Positions 9,545-26,797 of a stretch of 30,322 bases of DNA are shown piece by piece. This stretch comes from a virus: IMG/VR virus record IMGVR_UViG_3300018481_000057, positions 1 to 30,322 of that record; one strand, written 5' to 3'. The notes under the pieces are model-generated. The model ran no database searches. It was not told the DNA's origin and saw only the letters and a program-made list of their open reading frames with translations. Within the stretch, counting starts at the first letter, position 1. Each line of letters starts with the position of its first letter. Position numbers and translations under genes: made by a program.

Positions 9545-10063
9545 ATGGAAAGCACCACTGTCACTGAACCACGAGACACCCCCACCGACTTCTCGGAGAT
9601 TCCGCAGCAAGTCCAGCACGACTACTTCGGCTTCACTCACACGGAGAAGTTCTACTTCCCCGACGGCATCACCTACTTCGAGATTCAGAAGATGAACGAA
9701 GGCCAGAAGTCGAAGTTCCAGAAGAGCACCCAGCGTGACCTGACCCTCGAGAAGGGTAGCGGCAACGCCAAGTTCAGCATGGACCCGGCGAGAGAGCGTC
9801 ACGAGCTCATCAAGTCTTCCGTCATCTCGTGGAACCTGACTCGCGGCGGTCAGCCCATCCCCTTCGACGCTCGCGGTCGAGCCATTCAGGACTTCCTCGA
9901 CCTTGGCGACCCGCAGATCGTGGAGGACATCGAGCTCTTCATTCGCAAGCTGAACCCCTGGCTCCTCAATGACCTCACCGTCGAGGAGATCGACAAGCAG
10001 ATCCAAGAGCTGCAGGAGCTGCGTGTGACCGTGGAGGAGAAGGAGCGGGGGGAATCCTCCTAG
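9545..10063 (+). CDS. Tail assembly chaperone, short form (gpG-like)
   Basis: A 172-residue protein between the major tail and tape measure genes, the fixed position of the tail assembly chaperone in long-tailed phages. It is rich in charged residues, with an N-terminal part that includes the aromatic motif YFGFTHTEKFYFPDG and a C-terminal helical region (IDKQIQELQELRVTVEEKERG). Such proteins coat the tape measure during tail assembly and are absent from the finished particle. Just before its stop codon lies a run of six G followed by AA (10047-10054), which allows a -1 shift into the downstream open frame to make the longer form. The ATG at 9545 follows a GGAG site. Confidence 0.85.
   Translation: MESTTVTEPRDTPTDFSEIPQQVQHDYFGFTHTEKFYFPDGITYFEIQKMNEGQKSKFQKSTQRDLTLEKGSGNAKFSMDPARERHELIKSSVISWNLTRGGQPIPFDARGRAIQDFLDLGDPQIVEDIELFIRKLNPWLLNDLTVEEIDKQIQELQELRVTVEEKERGESS
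10048..10054 (+). promoter_or_regulatory. Slippery heptamer GGGGGAA for -1 frameshifting in the tail chaperone
   Basis: In the zero frame the codons here are CGG GGG GAA. The heptamer G GGG GAA lets a P-site glycine tRNA re-pair perfectly after a one-base backward slip. The exact slip codon within the six-G run is not decided by the sequence. Confidence 0.7.
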
Positions 10064-10332
10064 CCCAGCAGGCTCGGGACTTTGTTCGAGGCAAGCCTGT
10101 CTCTGGAGCGGTGTCGATCATCCGAATGTTCTCGCTGTGTGAGCACATGAAGTGGGCGCACCTTCCAGCGGCAGGCGGCCTCTACGATCAGAACCCCGAA
10201 CTGTTGGAAGGCTTCCAGCTCATCTTTTCCGAACGCACCGAGTTCGAAGTAGAGGAGCGAAAGAAGCAGGATCGCGAGTCGGGTAGACAGAAGGCGACTC
10301 AACGATCTCGCGCATCCCGACCGCGGAGGTAG
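10051..10332 (+). CDS. Tail assembly chaperone, -1 frameshift extension (gpT-like part of gpG-T)
   Basis: The -1 frame is open from the slip site across the chaperone stop to 10332 and adds about 93 residues, giving a fusion of about 262 residues: bases 9545-10051 are read in the first frame, then 10051-10332 in the -1 frame. Downstream residues include AQQARDFVRGKPVSG and KWAHLPAAGGLYDQNPELLEG, ending in a basic tail (RASRPRR). There is no ATG or TTG and no ribosome-binding site near the junction; the only in-frame conventional start is an unsupported GTG at 10111. This is the classical lambda G/GT arrangement, which balances two chaperone forms at a fixed ratio. Confidence 0.83.
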   Translation, partial: GILLAQQARDFVRGKPVSGAVSIIRMFSLCEHMKWAHLPAAGGLYDQNPELLEGFQLIFSERTEFEVEERKKQDRESGRQKATQRSRASRPRR

Positions 10333-10433: not shown

Positions 10434-13400
10434 GTGCCCGCCATTAACGCCTTTATGAACATTCGCGTTTCTGTGTATTCGGCACGGGCTCAGAAAGAGA
10501 TCGCCGTTCTTCAGGCGAAGGTCAAGAGCCTAGAAGCGCAACTCGCAAGGGCTAATGGGGCAGCGGCTGGTTTGGGTACTCGGGGCATCCCCGGTATCAC
10601 CAAGTGGGGCAACCAGCTACAGTGGGCTGGCCGGCAGCTTCAGTACAACTTCACGCTGCCAATTCTTCTAGCAGGAGCCGCGGCTACCAAGTTCGCTCTC
10701 GATAATGAGAAGGCGATGGTCCGCGTCGTCAAGGTCTATGGCGACGGCTCTGAAGCGATGAACCAGCTTTCAAAGACTGAGATTCCCGCTCTGGAAAAGG
10801 CGTTCGTTGCACTGTCCAACCGCTTCGCTATTGCACAGTCAGACGCTATCAACATTGCAGCAGACTGGGCTGCCGCTGGCGCCTCGGGGGTTGCGCTAGC
10901 CCGGTCGGTTAAGCTGACCATGGAGACGATGGTCCTCGGTGAGCTGGAGGCCAAGGAAGCCACCGAAGCCCTCATTGCAATTCAGGCACAGTATAACTTC
11001 AACACCAAGGAACTCATCGAGACGATCGATGTTCTGAACATGGTGGAGAACCAGACCGGTATTTCCATGGCTGGTTTGATTCAGGGCATGGCACGCTCCG
11101 CTGGTGTTGCGCGTGAGATGGGTGTCGATGTTCAGCACCTCGCCGCGATGATGGCTGCGCTTGTTCCCGCAACGGGTAGCGCAGCCGCCGCTGGTAACGG
11201 CCTCAAGACGATCCTGTCACGCCTCATGTCGCCTACGAATGAGGCGAACGAGGTTATGATGAAGATGGGGATTAACACCAAGGATCTCGCCTGGCAGAGT
11301 CTCAACGCTACCCAGCGTCTCGAGAAGATGGCGTCGGTCTACGTCACTCTGCATGACGCACAGAAGATCGTTGTTGCTAGCACTGCTGCTAGTCGCTGGC
11401 AGATTAACCGCTTCGGGCAGTTGATGACAGACATTAACAACCCGCTCGGTTACTATCACCGTTCGCTGCAGGCTACTGCTGACACGAGTAAGAACTTCGC
11501 ACAGAGGCAGAAGGAGCTCAATACCGTTCTGGAGTCGAGCCCTCAGCGGCTCAAGCAGATCTGGGTGATGCTGCAGAACACGATGGCGAACGTCATTCAG
11601 CCGGCTATCCCAATGATCCTCATTCTGGCAGACGCTCTTGCCAAGGCCTTCAAGTGGTTCAGTAACCTTGATCCCGTCATCCAGAAGCTTGGCCTTGCGT
11701 TCCTAGTTCTCCTTGCGGCCATCGGTCCTGTCGTTCGATACATGGGCTCGGTTGGAGTCCTGCTTGGTGTCCTGCAAGAGGCGTTCCGGTTTGCCGCTCG
11801 TCAGGTTCTTCACTTTGGCGAAGCGCTGCTGTCGCTCATCAAGGGACCGTTTAAGCTGTTCGGCAGGGCTGCGATGGGGCTCGGTGGCCTGTTCATGAAG
11901 CTTGGTAGCATTATTGCCAGCGCATGGGGAAGCATTGTAGGAGCAGTGTCCACAGCCGGCACTGCGATCGTCGCAGGTTTCGCAACCTTCATGGGCGGGC
12001 TGAGAGTTGTCGGACTATTCTTCCTCGACATCGCGGCGGTGATGAAGACCTCACTTACCCTGATGGCAACCAATGTCGTGGCGATCTGGGCGGGTACTTG
12101 GAGAGCAATTGCTGTCTTGTTCCTCAATGGGACTAAGTTGCTCATGGCGATTCAGATGATCTTCACTCAGAACTTCGTCAAGATGTTCGCCGTTCTTGGG
12201 ACGAACATCTTGGGGCTCTGGAGAGTCATCGTCCTTGGTCTGATACTGAACTGGGGCAGGTTCGTCGCAGCCATCCCAGCCATGCTGGCGGCAGTGCCTG
12301 CCGTACTTATGACGATCCTGGGCGGGATAGGAACCGCCATTGCAGCAGTCTTCACGAGTTGGGTAGGGCTGGCGGTCCTTGCCGTTACTGCACTGTTCGG
12401 TGTGATCTACTCCTTCCGCGAAGAGATTGCCGAAGCCTTCAAGTCGATTCCAAGGTACTTTGCGAGAAACGCTCAGAGCCTAAAGATCATCTGGCTCGGC
12501 ATTACAGACTTCTTCGGTGCCGCCATAACCTTCATTCAGAAGATGTTCTGGAAGCTGCCGCAAGGTATTCAGGACGCACTGCTTTCTGTTCTGCGAATTG
12601 TGCAAACAATCGTGATGAAGATTTACGAATGGCTTACATATCTTAACCCCTTTGCAAAGCACAGCCCCTCGCTGGTCGAGCAGGTCACGAAGGGTATGGC
12701 GGTTATCAAGGCCCAGTACGCTTCCGTGGGCAACGTGGGCGGAATCTTTAAGAAGGCCGCCCGTGACATCGAAGCATACAAGAGCGCCATTGGCACCATG
12801 GGAGCGGGTCCGTTCAGTAACGAACGAGAGGACGTTGCTACCTACTTCAAGAGCGCCCTCCCCCTCTTCGATGCACTGATCAGCGACCTCAAGGTTCTAA
12901 ACGGAATACTTGCACAGCAAGAAAAGGCTGTCAACGCACAGCAGGCTGTCGTGGATGCTTGGGAGGCTGCGCTAGACCAGGCGAACATGGCGCTTGATGA
13001 GGAGGAGAGGAAGCTCGATAGTCTAGAGGAGAAGCTCAACTCCCTCACCGACGCCTACACCGCTCATCAGAACGCGCTGGAGGCTTATGCGGACGCGCCG
13101 CTTCAAGGCATGGGCGCGATGGAAGATGCTATCTTTGCTAACCAGCAGGCGCAGAACCAGTTGCGTCTTGAGATGCTCAAGTGGGAGCAGGTCAACGGTA
13201 GCATCGAAGATGTCAAGAGTAACATGTCAGCCCTTGCCGGAAGCATGGAGGTGTTGCGTGGAGAGGCTGCAAGTCTCCGCGCCTCCGGTGCAGGTTCTGA
13301 CATTCTCGGTCCCATTCAGGATGAGATCGCCGCCATGCAGACTGCCTATGATGCTATGGGCACGTCCATGAACAACAGTCCTGTTTCTGAAATGCAGGCA

Positions 13401-16394
13401 GAGCTCGCCCGCCTCGGCAAGGAGGGGGAGATCCTTGATCTTGAAAAGTCCCTGAAGTTCGATGGGATGATTCGAGAGATCGACAAGCTGGCTAACGCCA
13501 CAACGGAACTCAGTTTCGAGCAGATCGTCGCAGGCATCAACGCCGAGAAGACGGCGATGGCAGCACTCGAGCCTCAGATCGCCTCCGCTACGGCAGCCGT
13601 CAACGCTCAGAAGGCGGCGGTCGATAGCGTCAAGGCTGCACGCGACAGTCTCCAGAGTGCATACGACGCAGAGAAGGCTAAGCTCGATGTGCTCAAGAAC
13701 AGCTACGAGCAGACGGCCAACGCTATTCGGGACGTTGAGTCTGCACTCAATGACATGGGTTCCGCCGCCACAACTGCGGGCAGTAGGGCCTCGGCCACAG
13801 CCGCCAGCGGTTACCAGAGTCCTGGCGCAGAGAACTTCGACAACGCAGCGGGTGGCAACTTCCCCGACGTGTCTGGCACCGGCGCGCAGATCGGTCGTGA
13901 GGGGGACTTCACTGATCAGAGTGACCTGATCGACCAGTTCACCAAGGACACCATTGCCGAGATGGAAAGAACTCTTGGCGGCATCGATATGTTCGGTGGC
14001 ATCAAGAAGAAGTGGGAAGAGTTCAAGAACTGGTGGACCATCAATGTCGAGCGCAACTTCATTCGCATCACCGAAGGTCTCAAGACGCTCTGGGAAGACT
14101 TTAGTAGTAGTTTTGGCGACAGCGGAATAGGCAGTACTGCTCAAGAGGTTTGGGGTAAGATAACCTCCGGTGCTCAGACGGCATGGGACGCGGTCAAGAG
14201 AATCTACGACCTCTTCGAGGATGACCTCAAGAAGGTCTGGAAGGAGATCGTCGAGGCGGGCAAGAAGATCTGGGAGGAGATCGGTCCCGAGTTGGAGAAG
14301 TTTAAGGAGCTTCTTCCGGGACTGACTATTCTATGGGACGCCCTGTGGAAGGGACTCAAGATCGCCGCAGGCATCGTCGGAGCCCTCCTCATTGGTGCAT
14401 TCAAGATTCTTAGTAGCATTCTTGCTCACACGCTTGGGCCAGCGATTGATATTATCATCGGCGTCTTCAAGGCTCTTGTAAAGATCGTGCGAGGCGTTAT
14501 CGAGCTTATCGTTGGCGTCTTTACCGGTGACCTTCAAATGGCGGTCAACGGTGTCAAGGATATCTTTGGTGGTCTCATTGGTGGCATTGTTGATGTCATC
14601 AAGGGCGGGTGGAACCTGATCTGGGGAGCCGTTGAGGGACTTGTAAATGGCGTAATTGATTGGGTTGTATGGCTTGCAGATGAGCTTGTCGGTCACTCGA
14701 TCATTCCAGACATGATTATGGATATCGTGGACTGGTTTGCAAACCTTCCACAGTGGGTGTTGGACGCGATTAAGAATCTCGCAGTCTACATCAAGGACGT
14801 TGTCGTTGAGGCGTGGGATAACTTCAAGAAGGCTTCCACCGATAAGTGGAATGACATTGCAACCTGGCTCAAGGCTAGAGGGCAGGCTGCCTACGACAAG
14901 CTCATTTCTGTCAAGGACAAGCTGCAGACCGCCGCAAAAGAATCATGGCAAGCCTTCAAGGACAAGTCGGTCTCGATGTGGGACACCTTCATCACCTACC
15001 TCAAGGCTCGACCCCAGCAGGCTTACGACAACTTTATTGCTGTCAAGGACAAGCTCATTGCCGTTGCTAAGGCTGCCTTCGAAGCGTTCCAGACCAAGGC
15101 TAAGGACATCGTTGACGGTAAGAACGGCTTGATGACTTGGATTGGTAACATTCCCGGTCGCATCGCAGGACTCCTCGGAGCGGTCGGTACGAAGGTCGCT
15201 GACTCCGTGAAGGCTTCATGGAACGCTGCAGCCAAGTGGATCAACGACAACGGCATCGGAGCAATCAACAAGGTTACCACTAAGTTCGGATTCACCCTTG
15301 GAGACCTTCCACGGTTCGCAGGCGGTGGCGTTATTCCCGGCAAGGTTTCGGCGCGAGACAACACGATCATTGCAGCCCGTACCGGTGAAGGTGTTATCGT
15401 GCCCGAGTTGGTTCGTAAGCTCGGTGGTGCTAGAGGTCTCGCTCAACTGAACAACGCCGCTCGCTCCGGTAACAGTGGAGCGCTAGCCAGCCTTGGTGTC
15501 GAGCGGTTCGCAGACGGTGGGATTATCGGCAAGGTCACTGGTTGGCTGACCAAGGGAGCCGGAAACGCTCTCGGTAACATCATCGGCGCGATGAAGCAGC
15601 CTGTTCGCGAGATCATGCCCGGCAAGCCCTTCATGGAGGATTGGGCTGTTGGAGCACTGCAGGGCTGGCAGGACAAGGCGAAGGCTTGGGGTGACAAGCA
15701 GGAGTCGATGGGCAATGGAGTCCTGCCGGGCACTGGCTACCAGTGGCAGACGAAGGTTCTCAAGGAGCGGTTCCCGTGGGCACAGATCACGAGTGACTTC
15801 CGCCCCGGCTCGATGACTGCCAGTGGCTACACCTCAATGCACGCCTTGGGTCGAGCGATCGACGTTACTCCGAGTACCGCCATCTTCGACTGGATTTATA
15901 ACACCTACGGCAAGAACACTAAGGAGCTGTTCTACGGTCCTAGGAATGGTAAGAACATTCGTCGCGGTAAGGACGTTACCATCGGCGGAGCACTGCTTGC
16001 AGATCACTACGATCACGTCCATTGGGGTTACGACAAGGGCGGAATCCTCCCTCCCGGAATGACGATGGCTCAAAACGGTACAGGAAGAAACGAGATAACC
16101 CTCACCGGAGCACAATGGGATACCTTCTCGTCGGTGGTCGCGCTCCTAGATAGCATGACCCTAAAGAGCGCCATGGGGGCTACCCCAGGGTCCGCAGCGG
16201 TGGCTCGCGTCGGTGCTACCCTAGCCACGGTGCAGGGTAGGCTCCGTGCAGCCGAGACTCGTGGCAACACATTGACCCAGGGTTCTGGCGGAACGACAGT
16301 TTACAACTTCTACGGAGACCTCGAGTTCCCGAATGTGAGGAATGGTTCCGACGCCGAGGACTTCCTCACGAACCTGAAGGGATTGGGAGGCTGA
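10434..16394 (+). CDS. Tape measure protein with embedded M15-type peptidase domain
   Basis: At about 1986 residues this is by far the longest gene and follows the tail chaperone pair, as a tape measure gene must; its length would set the tail length. Hydrophobic, possibly membrane-inserting stretches lie near residues 410-450 and 615-660. Long alanine-rich coiled coils span about 820-880 and 1030-1110. Two copies of a 44-residue unit (four 11-residue turns) start at W1472 and W1516. Near the C-terminus, about residues 1780-1870, is a peptidoglycan-peptidase-like domain with SDFRPGS, HALGRAID (H1803, D1810) and DHYDHVHW (H1861, H1863), the zinc-ligand layout of M15/D-Ala-D-Ala carboxypeptidases, probably used to open the wall at infection. 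The start is uncertain: GTG 10434 abuts the GAAAAGGGG site, ATG 10455 is too far, and an ATT at 10443 would be best spaced. Confidence 0.92.
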   Translation: MPAINAFMNIRVSVYSARAQKEIAVLQAKVKSLEAQLARANGAAAGLGTRGIPGITKWGNQLQWAGRQLQYNFTLPILLAGAAATKFALDNEKAMVRVVKVYGDGSEAMNQLSKTEIPALEKAFVALSNRFAIAQSDAINIAADWAAAGASGVALARSVKLTMETMVLGELEAKEATEALIAIQAQYNFNTKELIETIDVLNMVENQTGISMAGLIQGMARSAGVAREMGVDVQHLAAMMAALVPATGSAAAAGNGLKTILSRLMSPTNEANEVMMKMGINTKDLAWQSLNATQRLEKMASVYVTLHDAQKIVVASTAASRWQINRFGQLMTDINNPLGYYHRSLQATADTSKNFAQRQKELNTVLESSPQRLKQIWVMLQNTMANVIQPAIPMILILADALAKAFKWFSNLDPVIQKLGLAFLVLLAAIGPVVRYMGSVGVLLGVLQEAFRFAARQVLHFGEALLSLIKGPFKLFGRAAMGLGGLFMKLGSIIASAWGSIVGAVSTAGTAIVAGFATFMGGLRVVGLFFLDIAAVMKTSLTLMATNVVAIWAGTWRAIAVLFLNGTKLLMAIQMIFTQNFVKMFAVLGTNILGLWRVIVLGLILNWGRFVAAIPAMLAAVPAVLMTILGGIGTAIAAVFTSWVGLAVLAVTALFGVIYSFREEIAEAFKSIPRYFARNAQSLKIIWLGITDFFGAAITFIQKMFWKLPQGIQDALLSVLRIVQTIVMKIYEWLTYLNPFAKHSPSLVEQVTKGMAVIKAQYASVGNVGGIFKKAARDIEAYKSAIGTMGAGPFSNEREDVATYFKSALPLFDALISDLKVLNGILAQQEKAVNAQQAVVDAWEAALDQANMALDEEERKLDSLEEKLNSLTDAYTAHQNALEAYADAPLQGMGAMEDAIFANQQAQNQLRLEMLKWEQVNGSIEDVKSNMSALAGSMEVLRGEAASLRASGAGSDILGPIQDEIAAMQTAYDAMGTSMNNSPVSEMQAELARLGKEGEILDLEKSLKFDGMIREIDKLANATTELSFEQIVAGINAEKTAMAALEPQIASATAAVNAQKAAVDSVKAARDSLQSAYDAEKAKLDVLKNSYEQTANAIRDVESALNDMGSAATTAGSRASATAASGYQSPGAENFDNAAGGNFPDVSGTGAQIGREGDFTDQSDLIDQFTKDTIAEMERTLGGIDMFGGIKKKWEEFKNWWTINVERNFIRITEGLKTLWEDFSSSFGDSGIGSTAQEVWGKITSGAQTAWDAVKRIYDLFEDDLKKVWKEIVEAGKKIWEEIGPELEKFKELLPGLTILWDALWKGLKIAAGIVGALLIGAFKILSSILAHTLGPAIDIIIGVFKALVKIVRGVIELIVGVFTGDLQMAVNGVKDIFGGLIGGIVDVIKGGWNLIWGAVEGLVNGVIDWVVWLADELVGHSIIPDMIMDIVDWFANLPQWVLDAIKNLAVYIKDVVVEAWDNFKKASTDKWNDIATWLKARGQAAYDKLISVKDKLQTAAKESWQAFKDKSVSMWDTFITYLKARPQQAYDNFIAVKDKLIAVAKAAFEAFQTKAKDIVDGKNGLMTWIGNIPGRIAGLLGAVGTKVADSVKASWNAAAKWINDNGIGAINKVTTKFGFTLGDLPRFAGGGVIPGKVSARDNTIIAARTGEGVIVPELVRKLGGARGLAQLNNAARSGNSGALASLGVERFADGGIIGKVTGWLTKGAGNALGNIIGAMKQPVREIMPGKPFMEDWAVGALQGWQDKAKAWGDKQESMGNGVLPGTGYQWQTKVLKERFPWAQITSDFRPGSMTASGYTSMHALGRAIDVTPSTAIFDWIYNTYGKNTKELFYGPRNGKNIRRGKDVTIGGALLADHYDHVHWGYDKGGILPPGMTMAQNGTGRNEITLTGAQWDTFSSVVALLDSMTLKSAMGATPGSAAVARVGATLATVQGRLRAAETRGNTLTQGSGGTTVYNFYGDLEFPNVRNGSDAEDFLTNLKGLGG
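14847..15110 (+). repeat. Two 44-residue coding repeats in the tape measure gene
   Basis: The encoded protein repeats the pattern W-D/N-x-x-x-T-W/Y-L-K-A-R...Y-D...VKDKL with a period of 132 bases (44 residues), starting at 14847 and 14979. The period equals four 11-residue turns, typical of helical tape measure repeats. The DNA itself is diverged, so this is an old protein-level duplication. Confidence 0.6.
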
Positions 16395-23957: not shown

Positions 23958-25130
23958 TCAGTTCCCGTCATCGATCGGGTTCTTGGACTCGACCTTCACA
24001 GACGGCTCCCCCTTGCGAATCCAGACCAGCCCCTTGAGCTGAACCTTCTGCTGGTCGGTCAACTCCGTGCCCTTGATGAGCTTGTCCACGTTGCCGACGG
24101 TGAATGACTTGCCACCGTACTTCTCGAACAACTGTGGCCCAATGACCTGCTCGACCCTCTCCGCGTCCACGTTACGCCGACCGGAGACTGTGATGCTCAT
24201 TCGGTTCATCGTGGACTCGTATTCGAAGGCATCCTCGGCCTTGGCCTGCGCGAGGATCATTGCATCGAGATCCTTCATCGTAGAGTTGATACCGGCTAGT
24301 TGCCATTCCAGAGCGGCCCGTAGGTCGATAGCGTCCTGCGGGCTGGCGAAAGCCATGAGCCCCCCGACTGCAATGTTCTTCTGCAGGGCGGTGCAGTTGA
24401 ACTTGCGGATACAGAAACGGCACTCCGCGTTCAAGGTCTCGGGAGTGTCCTCCTCCGAGGTGCCGATGATCCGCTCCGCGGTCTCCTGCATGAAGCGCCA
24501 CATGCCGATGTTCTCTTCTCGAGAGAACACAATCCCCTTTGGTCCGTCGTGTCTGAGCATGTCGAACTCGACCCAGATCTTCTTGGCCTCGGGATACTGA
24601 ATCTGTGCCGCTACCCCATAGGCACGCGCCTGAATCTTCTTCTTCAGGTCCAGCGGGTTGATGTCCCAGCGATTGCTCTTGTAGTCAACGACTCGGATGG
24701 TGTCAGCATCGATCCGGTCGAAGCGGTCCCAGATGTAGTTGAAGGGGATTGGACCAGCGCTGGTCGTGATATCGAACGAGGTCTTAACCTCACAGGTCAA
24801 GACCTCGAATGTGGTGAAGTCGGTGCGAGCGTGCCAGCGCTGAAGCATGTCAACGCCGTCTTTGTACTCCTCGGTCTCCACGTCTGAAGAACCAAAAGTC
24901 GAGGTGTAGGTCATCTTGAAGAACAGGAGGAGCGTGGCGATGGTGGCTGGGAACTCTCCAGCGAGGATGCACTTCGTGACATACAACTCCAAAGCTCCAT
25001 GGACTGATGTACCGAGAGATGCCGCTGTGTTGGCAGGCCCCCCAGCCTTCTCGAACATTTCTGCTTTCCAGCGTGCCATGCAGAGCTGAGCAACGTTCAT
25101 CGACGTTGCTGAAAGAGACTTTGGAATCAT
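23958..25130 (-). CDS. Cas4/RecB-like PD-(D/E)XK exonuclease with iron-sulfur cysteines
   Basis: A 390-residue nuclease. An N-terminal cysteine (C17 in AQLCMARW), a GTSVHGALE motif (H44), DRFDRID (about 135-141), the nuclease core VVDYKS (D149, K151) and the QARAYG motif (Q167) follow the order of the Cas4/AddB-type nuclease fold. CRFC with C246 (C237, C240, C246) completes a four-cysteine set expected to hold a 4Fe-4S cluster. The C-terminal part (about 260-390) is helical and not recognised. Such phage Cas4-like exonucleases probably process DNA ends in recombination or replication. There is no CRISPR array or other cas gene here. The start overlaps the upstream stop by four bases (ATGA), and this is the last gene of the leftward operon. 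Confidence 0.83.
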   Translation of the reverse strand: MIPKSLSATSMNVAQLCMARWKAEMFEKAGGPANTAASLGTSVHGALELYVTKCILAGEFPATIATLLLFFKMTYTSTFGSSDVETEEYKDGVDMLQRWHARTDFTTFEVLTCEVKTSFDITTSAGPIPFNYIWDRFDRIDADTIRVVDYKSNRWDINPLDLKKKIQARAYGVAAQIQYPEAKKIWVEFDMLRHDGPKGIVFSREENIGMWRFMQETAERIIGTSEEDTPETLNAECRFCIRKFNCTALQKNIAVGGLMAFASPQDAIDLRAALEWQLAGINSTMKDLDAMILAQAKAEDAFEYESTMNRMSITVSGRRNVDAERVEQVIGPQLFEKYGGKSFTVGNVDKLIKGTELTDQQKVQLKGLVWIRKGEPSVKVESKNPIDDGN

Positions 25131-25429
25131 ACTAGCCAGCTTCCTAATATCGGCATTGGTTGTTTCTCGGTTACTGTGAAGTCGTATTCGATCGGCCTAT
25201 CTCCAAACACCTGACCCTCCCAAGAGTGGACATATCCTTCAAATATGGTCAGACCTTCGCTAAGTACTGTGACGTGATCTCCGGCTACTGCGCAGTCTAG
25301 CGACTTGAAGGATATCTGCTTGCCGCCGACTCCTACTGTTCGAGTATAGGTATCGTCGAGAATATTGAGAGGTCTAGAGAGTTCTTCTCGTGGACCGGGG
25401 TAGGGAGTGCTGTCAATCCACCAGTTCAC
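25127..25429 (-). CDS. Hypothetical protein
   Basis: A 100-residue protein starting at GTG (25429-25427) behind an AGAGG site; the start overlaps the WhiB-like stop as GTGA. The sequence is beta-rich (TRTVGVGGKQISFKSLD, VTVLSEGLTIFEGYVHSWEG) without cysteines, catalytic motifs or membrane segments. I do not recognise the family. It is translationally coupled to both neighbours, the WhiB-like protein and the Cas4-like nuclease. Confidence 0.7.
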   Translation of the reverse strand: MNWWIDSTPYPGPREELSRPLNILDDTYTRTVGVGGKQISFKSLDCAVAGDHVTVLSEGLTIFEGYVHSWEGQVFGDRPIEYDFTVTEKQPMPILGSWLV

Positions 25430-25731
25430 TTCTCGCCTCTCTTGCTAAGTTCACCGCCCCATATACCATACTCTGAGTCGGTACGCCTCTTGTAGTCCTT
25501 GCATTCTCTGCGTACTGTGCATTGGATACAGACCAATTGAGCAGTGGCAGCCATGTCGGGTCGCCCCTTCTCGGGGAAAAAGATCTCGGGGTCTACTTCT
25601 CTACATCTGGCTCGCTCTTGCCACTCTTCGGAGCCGGGCTCTCGGATGAAGTTTGCGACCCACTCTCGCTTGGGCTGGGAGGTGTACTGGCCTTCTCCGC
25701 AGATGCAGTCGTCTCCTTTGTTCCCGACCAG
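25426..25731 (-). CDS. WhiB-like iron-sulfur protein; start non-canonical or reached by frameshift
   Basis: In this frame the protein has the full Wbl signature. Numbered from the CTG at 25731, four cysteines have the spacing C43-x24-C68-x2-C71-x5-C77, the segment EEWQERARCREVDPEIFFP surrounds the first, and YGIWGG follows at 88-93 before a basic end. Wbl proteins bind a 4Fe-4S cluster and regulate transcription with the primary sigma factor. Extra cysteines C9 and C11 lie near the N-terminus. No ATG, GTG or TTG occurs upstream of C43 in this frame; the first is ATG 25554, which would give only 42 residues and lose one cluster cysteine. The CTG has GAGGGA six bases upstream. Alternatively the frame is entered by a -1 shift at CCCAAAA (25803-25797) in the gene above, giving a fusion of about 199 residues. 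The stop overlaps the next start (GTGA). Confidence 0.72.
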   Translation of the reverse strand: MVGNKGDDCICGEGQYTSQPKREWVANFIREPGSEEWQERARCREVDPEIFFPEKGRPDMAATAQLVCIQCTVRRECKDYKRRTDSEYGIWGGELSKRGEK

Positions 25732-26024
25732 TCTACGTCCCTCGTCTTCAGGGTCTCGTAAATCTCGGCGAGCGCAGAGTTCACTGCAGACGAGTCTTTT
25801 GGGTCGTCTACCTCCGGTGCCACCTCCTCTTCCGCCTCGGGCCTTGCGCGGAAGTCGAACTCGTCGAAGTCACTGGACTTACCCCACATGATAACGGGGT
25901 GCAACTCACGCACTCCGTCGTCCTCCACGCCACCCGCGGCTGGGGCCAGACCTTCTTGTTCAGGCTGGGCACTCACGCTATTCTTCTTTCGTTGGTTGGG
26001 ACCGAAGCACCATGATAGACACAC
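25593..26024 (-). CDS. Acidic hypothetical protein overlapping the WhiB-like frame
   Basis: A frame of 143 residues from GTG 26024; other in-frame starts are GTG 25976 and ATG 25889, and none has a strong ribosome-binding site. Residues 46-100 (from MWGKSSDFDEFDF through an acidic stretch to SALAEIYETLKTRDVDW) look like ordinary coding sequence with a short helix. The last 40 residues are low-complexity Ser/Pro/Thr/Glu. Residues about 75-76 are encoded by the slippery CCCAAAA. No family is recognised. The gene is separated from the methyltransferase by the only non-overlapping gap of the operon (41 bases). Either this product is made alone, or it is the N-terminal part of a frameshift fusion with the WhiB domain. 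Confidence 0.6.
   Translation of the reverse strand: MCLSWCFGPNQRKKNSVSAQPEQEGLAPAAGGVEDDGVRELHPVIMWGKSSDFDEFDFRARPEAEEEVAPEVDDPKDSSAVNSALAEIYETLKTRDVDWSGTKETTASAEKASTPPSPSESGSQTSSESPAPKSGKSEPDVEK
25738..25743 (-). promoter_or_regulatory. Possible ribosome-binding site for a CTG start of the WhiB-like protein
   Basis: GAGGGA on the minus strand is followed after six bases by CTG (25731-25729) in the WhiB frame. The site is inside the upstream gene. Confidence 0.4.
25797..25803 (-). promoter_or_regulatory. In-register slippery heptamer CCCAAAA upstream of the WhiB-like frame
   Basis: On the minus strand, zero-frame codons of the upstream gene read GAC CCA AAA GAC, so the heptamer is C CCA AAA, a canonical X XXY YYZ site. 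A -1 slip moves translation into the frame that stays open to the WhiB stop at 25426. A small GCAG/CTGC hairpin lies about ten bases downstream; no strong pseudoknot is obvious. Confidence 0.5.
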
Positions 26025-26065: not shown

Positions 26066-26797
26066 TCACCCAAGTCCGAAGCCAGCGCCGTCACCCTCCT
26101 TGAACTTCTTCATGGCAAGATCGAAGTTAGTTTTGTCGAGTTCGATAGACACTGCACTACGGCGGCACCGTTCGGCTGCACGCACTAAAGAGCCGCTGCC
26201 ACCGAACGGATCGACCACGAACTGCCCCTCTGATGTTGACGCCTTGATAAACAACTCGAGAAGAGCGGGCGGCTTCTCGTGGGGATGGATGAGCTCACCG
26301 GGCCGTACCTGTGGAATCCTGACCACACTGTTGCGGCGGCTCCAATGGGACTGCTTGAGCTGCCTACCCCTCTGGAAGAAGAGTATGAACTCACTGCCCT
26401 GTCCCCAAGGGCACTCGGTGTCCCCCATGCCGGGGCCTTCTTTTTCCCAGACGATGATCGCGCTACGCCGGTAACCGAAGGTGCCGAGGTACTCCTTTGT
26501 CATCTGCATCCACTCGTCCAGCACCTGCTGGGAAGTGAAGACGTAGAGGTCGGAGTCCGGCTTCGTCTTCGGAATCAGCACGTCCATGACAGCCTTGAAC
26601 GTAGCAATGGCGATCTCAGGAGACTCGTCGTTGGCGATCTTCCGAGCATACTCCTTGCCGTGAGCGGTCACCGCTTGATTGCTCTGATTGTCAACACCGA
26701 AGGGAGGATCGGTGATGATACAGTCCACCCTACCCGGCTTAAAGCGCTGGCACAGTTCGACACTGTCGCCGAGCCAGATGTTGTGATGCAAGTTCAC
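26066..26797 (-). CDS. DNA methyltransferase, beta-class N6-adenine or N4-cytosine type
   Basis: A 243-residue S-adenosylmethionine-dependent DNA methylase. The catalytic motif DPPF is at residues 30-33 (DCIITDPPFGV), and the cofactor-binding motif DPFGGSG is at about 196-202, preceded by HPHEKP (171-176). Catalytic motif before the cofactor motif is the beta-class order. It could modify phage DNA against host restriction or mark replication and packaging sites. No restriction endonuclease is adjacent, so it looks like an orphan enzyme. The GTG start lies six to seven bases after a GGGAGG site and overlaps the preceding stop (TAGTG). Confidence 0.88.
   Translation of the reverse strand: MNLHHNIWLGDSVELCQRFKPGRVDCIITDPPFGVDNQSNQAVTAHGKEYARKIANDESPEIAIATFKAVMDVLIPKTKPDSDLYVFTSQQVLDEWMQMTKEYLGTFGYRRSAIIVWEKEGPGMGDTECPWGQGSEFILFFQRGRQLKQSHWSRRNSVVRIPQVRPGELIHPHEKPPALLELFIKASTSEGQFVVDPFGGSGSLVRAAERCRRSAVSIELDKTNFDLAMKKFKEGDGAGFGLG

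Follow-up and report, generated by a model that had tools for sequence, protein, structure and literature searches.

How does a phage translate a WhiB-like (Wbl) reading frame that has no normal start codon and lies −1 to the gene it overlaps? This question is raised by a locus on the minus strand of the window, the whole 30,322-nucleotide stretch of viral DNA analysed here (IMG/VR record IMGVR_UViG_3300018481_000057). The initial annotation had noted a complete Wbl cysteine spacing with a GIWGG motif in the frame ending at 25426, no start codon upstream of the first cluster cysteine, and a CCCAAAA in the overlapping gene (26024–25593), read as C CCA AAA, after which a −1 slip would leave the frame open for 123 codons through the WhiB domain. 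We confirmed these observations: the frame matches the Pfam WhiB family, its first ATG, GTG or TTG is at 25554, past the first Wbl cysteine, and both the heptamer (25803–25797) and the open frame from AGA 25797 to the stop are as described (Table 1). The upstream frame overlaps as stated, but its start was probably misplaced: GTG 25976, behind GAAAGAAG, is the likely start, and GTG 26024, which would give a longer ORF, is less likely. Joining the two frames at the heptamer predicts a 183-residue fusion, composed of 60 residues of the 0 frame and the 123 codons of the −1 frame. The 0-frame product has a conserved DF-R/T-P-like motif in its N-terminal part and a Ser/Pro-rich tail past the heptamer.

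Table 1 Features of the Wbl locus in the window (positions are those of the window)
Feature	Position	Strand	Basis or remark
Upstream 0-frame gene, likely short form of 127 aa from GTG 25976	25593–25976	−	Sequence
Shine–Dalgarno-like GAAAGAAG, 5' of GTG 25976	25983–25990	−	Sequence
Internal Shine–Dalgarno-like purine stretch GGAGGTGGCACCGGAGGT, candidate frameshift stimulator	25810–25827	−	Ends 6 nt before heptamer
Slippery heptamer C_CCA_AAA, in register with 0 frame	25797–25803	−	Same site in 23 loci
−1 frame after slip, AGA 25797 to stop, 123 codons	25426–25797	−	Open frame
Cysteine segment, −1 frame only	25690–25788	−	C 25788–25786, x3, C 25776–25774
Second Cys pair of the segment	25707–25705 (C), x, 25701–25699 (C)	−	Followed by G-E-G
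Wbl domain, four cluster cysteines and GIWGG	25453–25623	−	PF02467, E = 1.2e-17, residues 61–117
Overlap open in both 0 frame and −1 frame (dual coding)	25593–25797	−	Fewer substitutions than −1-only part
GTGA overlap, Wbl stop and start of next gene (25429–25127)	25426–25429	−	Sequence
Cas4/PD-(D/E)XK-type exonuclease, second gene downstream	23958–25130	−	First downstream in many relatives

Because a DNA-level search of the locus against phage records gave no match, we sought relatives by protein. A tblastn search of phage records matched 843 records, and in 95 of these at least 80% of the −1 product was covered, so that a homologue of this extent is present in at least 95 phage records. We compared 23 loci: the window, 20 isolates with the arrangement, which were selected by protein similarity and not by the slip site, and two unrelated metagenomic contigs, which came from a DNA scan for the heptamer pattern and were therefore left out of the unbiased count of 20. 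The isolates infect Gordonia, Rhodococcus and Tsukamurella. The Wbl frame is −1 to the upstream ORF in 20 of 20 isolates and in both contigs, and at all 23 loci no stop interrupts it between the heptamer and the end of the Wbl domain. A perfect in-register heptamer occupies the same position in 23/23 loci (two of them found by the pattern itself). It reads CCCAAAA in ReqiDocB7, RobinSparkles, Gmala1, GMA3, Jumbo, Camerico, Mbo2, Perlina, Reynauld and GordTnk2, as in the window, and CCCTTTA in MrWormie, Eggsie, TIN4, GTE7, Kvothe, Hotorobo, Katyusha, PokyPuppy, Niagara and BenoitCattle. Among the relatives compared, none has an ATG-started WhiB gene in a single continuous frame. When the −1 product was searched against genome contigs of 84,980 species, 16 pattern matches included no relative, and we found no cellular or in-frame homologue there; a profile scan of viral contigs otherwise returned mostly ordinary Wbl genes.

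Public annotations of the relatives compared nowhere join the two frames. Depositors gave the WhiB gene a late start, shortened it (33 aa in MrWormie) or omitted it (Eggsie, TIN4, GTE7, Camerico and PokyPuppy). In RobinSparkles (L032 303–674), a second, separately annotated WhiB gene (gene 55) lies about 2 kb upstream of the frameshifted one.

The −1 product after the heptamer follows the pattern P-x-R-(xx)-C-x3-C...C-x(n)-C-G-x-G, ahead of the Wbl domain, with n = 1 except in both metagenomic contigs, where the second cysteine pair is wider. R3, C6, C10, C33, C35, G36 and G38 are invariant in all aligned rows, and C6 is encoded 3–5 codons past the first codon of the heptamer, so that conserved residues of the −1 frame directly follow the proposed slip. 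In RobinSparkles, Gmala1 and GordTnk2, a −1-frame stop stands immediately 5' of the CCC, and no ATG, GTG, TTG or CTG occurs between this stop and C6; translation can therefore reach C6 only through entry into the −1 frame at the heptamer. An ORF without a usable start before its conserved part is a feature by which frameshifted genes are recognised.

The domain that follows is a Wbl domain, with four cluster cysteines, a G[IV]W-type motif and a Pfam score of 64.7 bits (cut-off 23.6), and this part also matches the solved WhiB, WhiB1, WhiB3, WhiB4 and WhiB7 chains. Pfam and PHROGs matched the Wbl part only and NCBIfam gave no match to the −1 product; the Cys4 segment had no recognised relative in these family searches or among solved chains. 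AlphaFold2 modelled the N-terminal 57 residues of the −1 product with pLDDT below 50, the Cys4 segment being of low confidence. Two metagenomic relatives, L132 569–1027 and L134 4393–4836 (reverse complement), keep the slip site and the first cysteine pair; their second pair is much wider apart, and CxCGEG reads RGCGLGEW or RNCGQGQW. They may form a bridge to more distant members.

Is the heptamer itself under selection? In the window, 15 ORFs with 7645 codons contained nine in-register X_XXY_YYZ sites, none of them CCCAAAA or CCCTTTA; AAA accounts for 18 of 350 Lys codons (5%) and CCA for 15.5% of Pro codons, and the occurrence of the heptamer in register exceeds chance. Across relatives, base 1 of the heptamer falls at the wobble position of the 0-frame codon before it (which encodes Asp, Asn, Ala, Ser, Arg or Thr, by lineage) and base 4 at that of the Pro codon. 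Under tandem slippage neither is read in the −1 product, and both are thus without coding constraint. Yet in 16 of 16 lineages (below 70% identity; largest pairwise value 69%) a C stands at base 1, and base 4 is an A where AAA follows and a T where TTA follows. With the two lineages supplied by the pattern scan set aside, the chance products over the other 14, calculated with each locus's own codon use, were roughly 10^-5 and 10^-10 for the two bases, values that assume independence, which shared ancestry reduces. Third positions of other conserved columns are free to vary in the same comparison. TTA makes up 1 of 360 Leu codons in the other genes of five CCCTTTA loci, whereas the A-site codon of the heptamer there is always TTA. 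That AAAA and TTTA replace one another while the slippery rule holds shows that slipperiness is preserved and not an amino acid. Site and frame are conserved beyond protein-coding constraint.

The overlap is read in both frames. Between Gmala1 and GordTnk2 we counted 1 substitution in the overlap and 13 in the −1-only part; between Eggsie (L028) and L140 the counts were 2 and 19. Both frames are constrained, and the overlap evolves at a slower rate than the rest of the −1 frame. Stops interrupt the third frame within the overlap in 22 of 23 loci, and the −1 frame has none.

Taken with the shared frame relation, position and in-register heptamer of the 23 loci, these patterns argue strongly for the fusion that had been proposed from the window alone: a conserved programmed −1 ribosomal frameshift very probably makes an ORF–Cys4–Wbl fusion, as a minority product beside the 127-aa short form. 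A family of phages of soil and wastewater actinobacteria appears, on this comparative evidence, to make a WhiB-type regulator only through a ribosomal slip inside another gene.

We weighed other explanations against this one. Both routes might operate, with the long fusion made by frameshifting everywhere and a short Wbl protein made in addition from an internal start in some lineages. In ReqiDocB7, Kvothe, GMA3, Jumbo and others, start codons do occur, lying 4–34 codons ahead of the first cysteine of the Wbl domain. However, the window, the MrWormie group, TIN4, GTE7, Camerico and Mbo2 have no such start, and the Met codons concerned fall at aligned positions where other lineages carry different residues, so we regard a dual route as unlikely, though worth keeping in mind.

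An internal start could also be the whole explanation, with a free-standing Wbl protein initiated at CTG 25731 or later and an incidental frame relation. A CTG start had been favoured in the initial annotation, and GAGGGA does precede the CTG by 6 nt in the window; in some relatives a start codon lies shortly before the Wbl domain and is annotated in databases. But CTG 25731 lies downstream of the invariant C6 and C10, its position is not conserved, and the window, the MrWormie group, TIN4, GTE7, Camerico, Mbo2 and one metagenomic contig lack any ATG, GTG or TTG ahead of the first cysteine of the Wbl domain. The apparent switch of codon choice nearer 25731 than 25797, which had been taken to point to the CTG, is present but loses that meaning because about 69 codons are read in both frames and the −1 frame is conserved from the first codons after the heptamer. 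As an internal start also leaves the conservation of the heptamer unexplained, we consider this account very improbable.

Slippage of RNA polymerase in place of the ribosome would likewise be expected to give a mixed-frame product. The homopolymers known to cause transcriptional slippage are longer than the runs at this site, which are only CCC plus AAAA or TTT, and conservation obeys the codon-register rule X_XXY_YYZ, which is relevant only to a ribosome; this origin has very little probability. That a single ordinary gene was broken by an indel introduced in sequencing or assembly, or that it decayed into a pseudogene, is scarcely credible: a single indel would yield the −1 relation, but the same arrangement with an in-register heptamer recurs in 22 other independently sequenced genomes or contigs, no continuous-frame relative was found and both frames are constrained.

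Returning to programmed frameshifting, we infer the slippage itself, together with its rate, helper element and purpose, from an anatomy, conservation and constraint that are seen directly. Ribosomes would begin at GTG 25976 and read the short upstream gene. At C_CCA_AAA a minority would pause, probably held by the SD-like GGAGGT just upstream, and the Pro- and Lys-tRNAs would re-pair one base back, on CCC AAA. Slipped ribosomes would then continue in the −1 frame through the four-cysteine segment and the Wbl domain to 25426. The two predicted products would share an N-terminus, the majority form having 127 aa with the Ser/Pro-rich tail and the minority form being the 183-aa fusion.

In the window, the GGAGGT/GGAGGTGGCACCGGAGGT stretch has a duplex energy of −13.8 against the anti-SD, in about the top 0.1% of window positions. 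In 18 of 19 loci the upstream SD-like pairing exceeds the background mean, in several only mildly, and some lineages (Reynauld) have a weak element or none. This upstream SD-like GGAGG element probably helps slippage, and we favour an SD-assisted mechanism. Downstream minimum-energy folds (pseudoknot-free folding) were not better than shuffled sequences in most lineages and gave no consistent hairpin signal.

What might such a slip achieve? Overproduction of the phage Wbl proteins TM4 gp49 or Hammy gp53 is toxic (PMC11075535); a set of phage-encoded Wbl proteins is surveyed in PMC8612146. From this toxicity, and thus from Wbl biology, we infer that frameshifting could hold a regulator with toxic potential to a small, constant proportion relative to its partner form, in line with the fixed low dose suggested for the window, and a further purpose may be to pass ribosomes on to a coupled downstream gene.

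A DNA methylase gene (26066–26797) precedes the frameshifted gene on the minus strand, and an exonuclease gene lies on its other side. Between Wbl and the exonuclease, the window has a 100-aa gene (25127–25429, −) with a GTGA start/stop overlap and no family match. Measured from the Wbl stop, the next gene starts at −16 to +22 nt in 16 of 16 lineages. As this start abuts the Wbl stop, slipped ribosomes would be those arriving at the next gene; translational coupling at the GTGA to −1-frame ribosomes is likely from this arrangement, and suggests that slippage also feeds the next gene. We tentatively put forward a joint reading, which we hold to be possible though less than even in likelihood: a dosage valve for two genes, in which the proportion of short form to Wbl fusion is fixed, the short form competes with the fusion for a common partner, and only slipped ribosomes reach the next gene (often a Cas4-type exonuclease). 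The Cys4 segment, possibly a new and previously undescribed one encoded by the −1 frame ahead of the Wbl domain, forms part of the same tentative reading.

Programmed −1 frameshifting is known; its conserved use for a Wbl fusion is, as far as we found in the open-licence literature searched, new. To our knowledge, conserved frameshifts of tailed phages are known mainly from tail-chaperone genes, whereas the product here is a transcription regulator. As in the lambda gpG/gpGT type (Xu et al. 2004, cited in PMC4524720 and PMC11751726), the locus is a phage gene pair with a predicted −1 slip at a short heptamer that would give a minority C-terminal extension from a second ORF without a start codon. 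Unlike that type, which lies between the major tail protein and tape-measure genes, the Wbl locus is not a tail gene: it sits among replication and recombination genes on the other strand, its neighbours being the methylase and exonuclease; what the slip would add is a Wbl regulator bearing a cysteine motif, and the window has its own tail-chaperone pair.

The tau/gamma system of Escherichia coli dnaX slips at an A_AAA_AAG-type site aided by an upstream SD-like sequence, with a downstream hairpin taking part; its products share an N-terminus and the frameshift product is the short one. The Wbl locus resembles it in the upstream SD-like sequence and in two predicted proteins with a common N-terminus, but here the frameshift product would be the long one and a hairpin was not found.

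Like TM4 gp49 and the set in PMC8612146, the Wbl protein here is phage-borne and has the PF02467 domain. Annotations of the Wbl genes of Giles, Sparky, Krueger, AvadaKedavra and CherryTomatoes, in contrast, show free-standing genes of normal length, each with a start of its own, whereas the one here has no start of its own and an N-terminal Cys4 extension. The word 'frameshift' is absent from that survey, and the open-licence literature on Gordonia phages and phage WhiB proteins reports frameshifting for tail chaperones only or leaves it unmentioned; WhiB does not occur in the first 300,000 characters of the Atkins 2016 review. PRFect, which also looks systematically for −1 sites, was applied to SEA-PHAGES genomes, from phages of this kind (PMC10885494), and its unjoined predictions were mostly in hypothetical and tail-chaperone genes; WhiB is unmentioned in the paper. 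Wider use of frameshifting was considered for four mycobacteriophage Wbl genes adjoining or overlapping others, and rejected: these have annotated starts of their own and ordinary length.

The locus provides a natural frameshift signal for actinobacterial genetics that is directly testable in isolated phages. It also bears on protein families. In relative L027, positions 2690–2791 correspond to phrog_11832, a 33-position Wbl tail, and positions 2193–2615 to phrog_6890, the upstream 0-frame product, named 'endonuclease' there and in RefSeq records; we found no nuclease domain in this product. The two families seem to be broken halves of one frameshifted gene, and the frameshift would account for both having been built from halves.

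Elsewhere in the window, an overlapping plus-strand pair (9545–10063 and 9973–10332) precedes the tape-measure gene (10434–16394). Relative to the first frame the second is shifted by −1, and a six-G run lies at 10047–10052. These are probable tail assembly chaperone genes, and likely represent a second, classical frameshift in the same phage.
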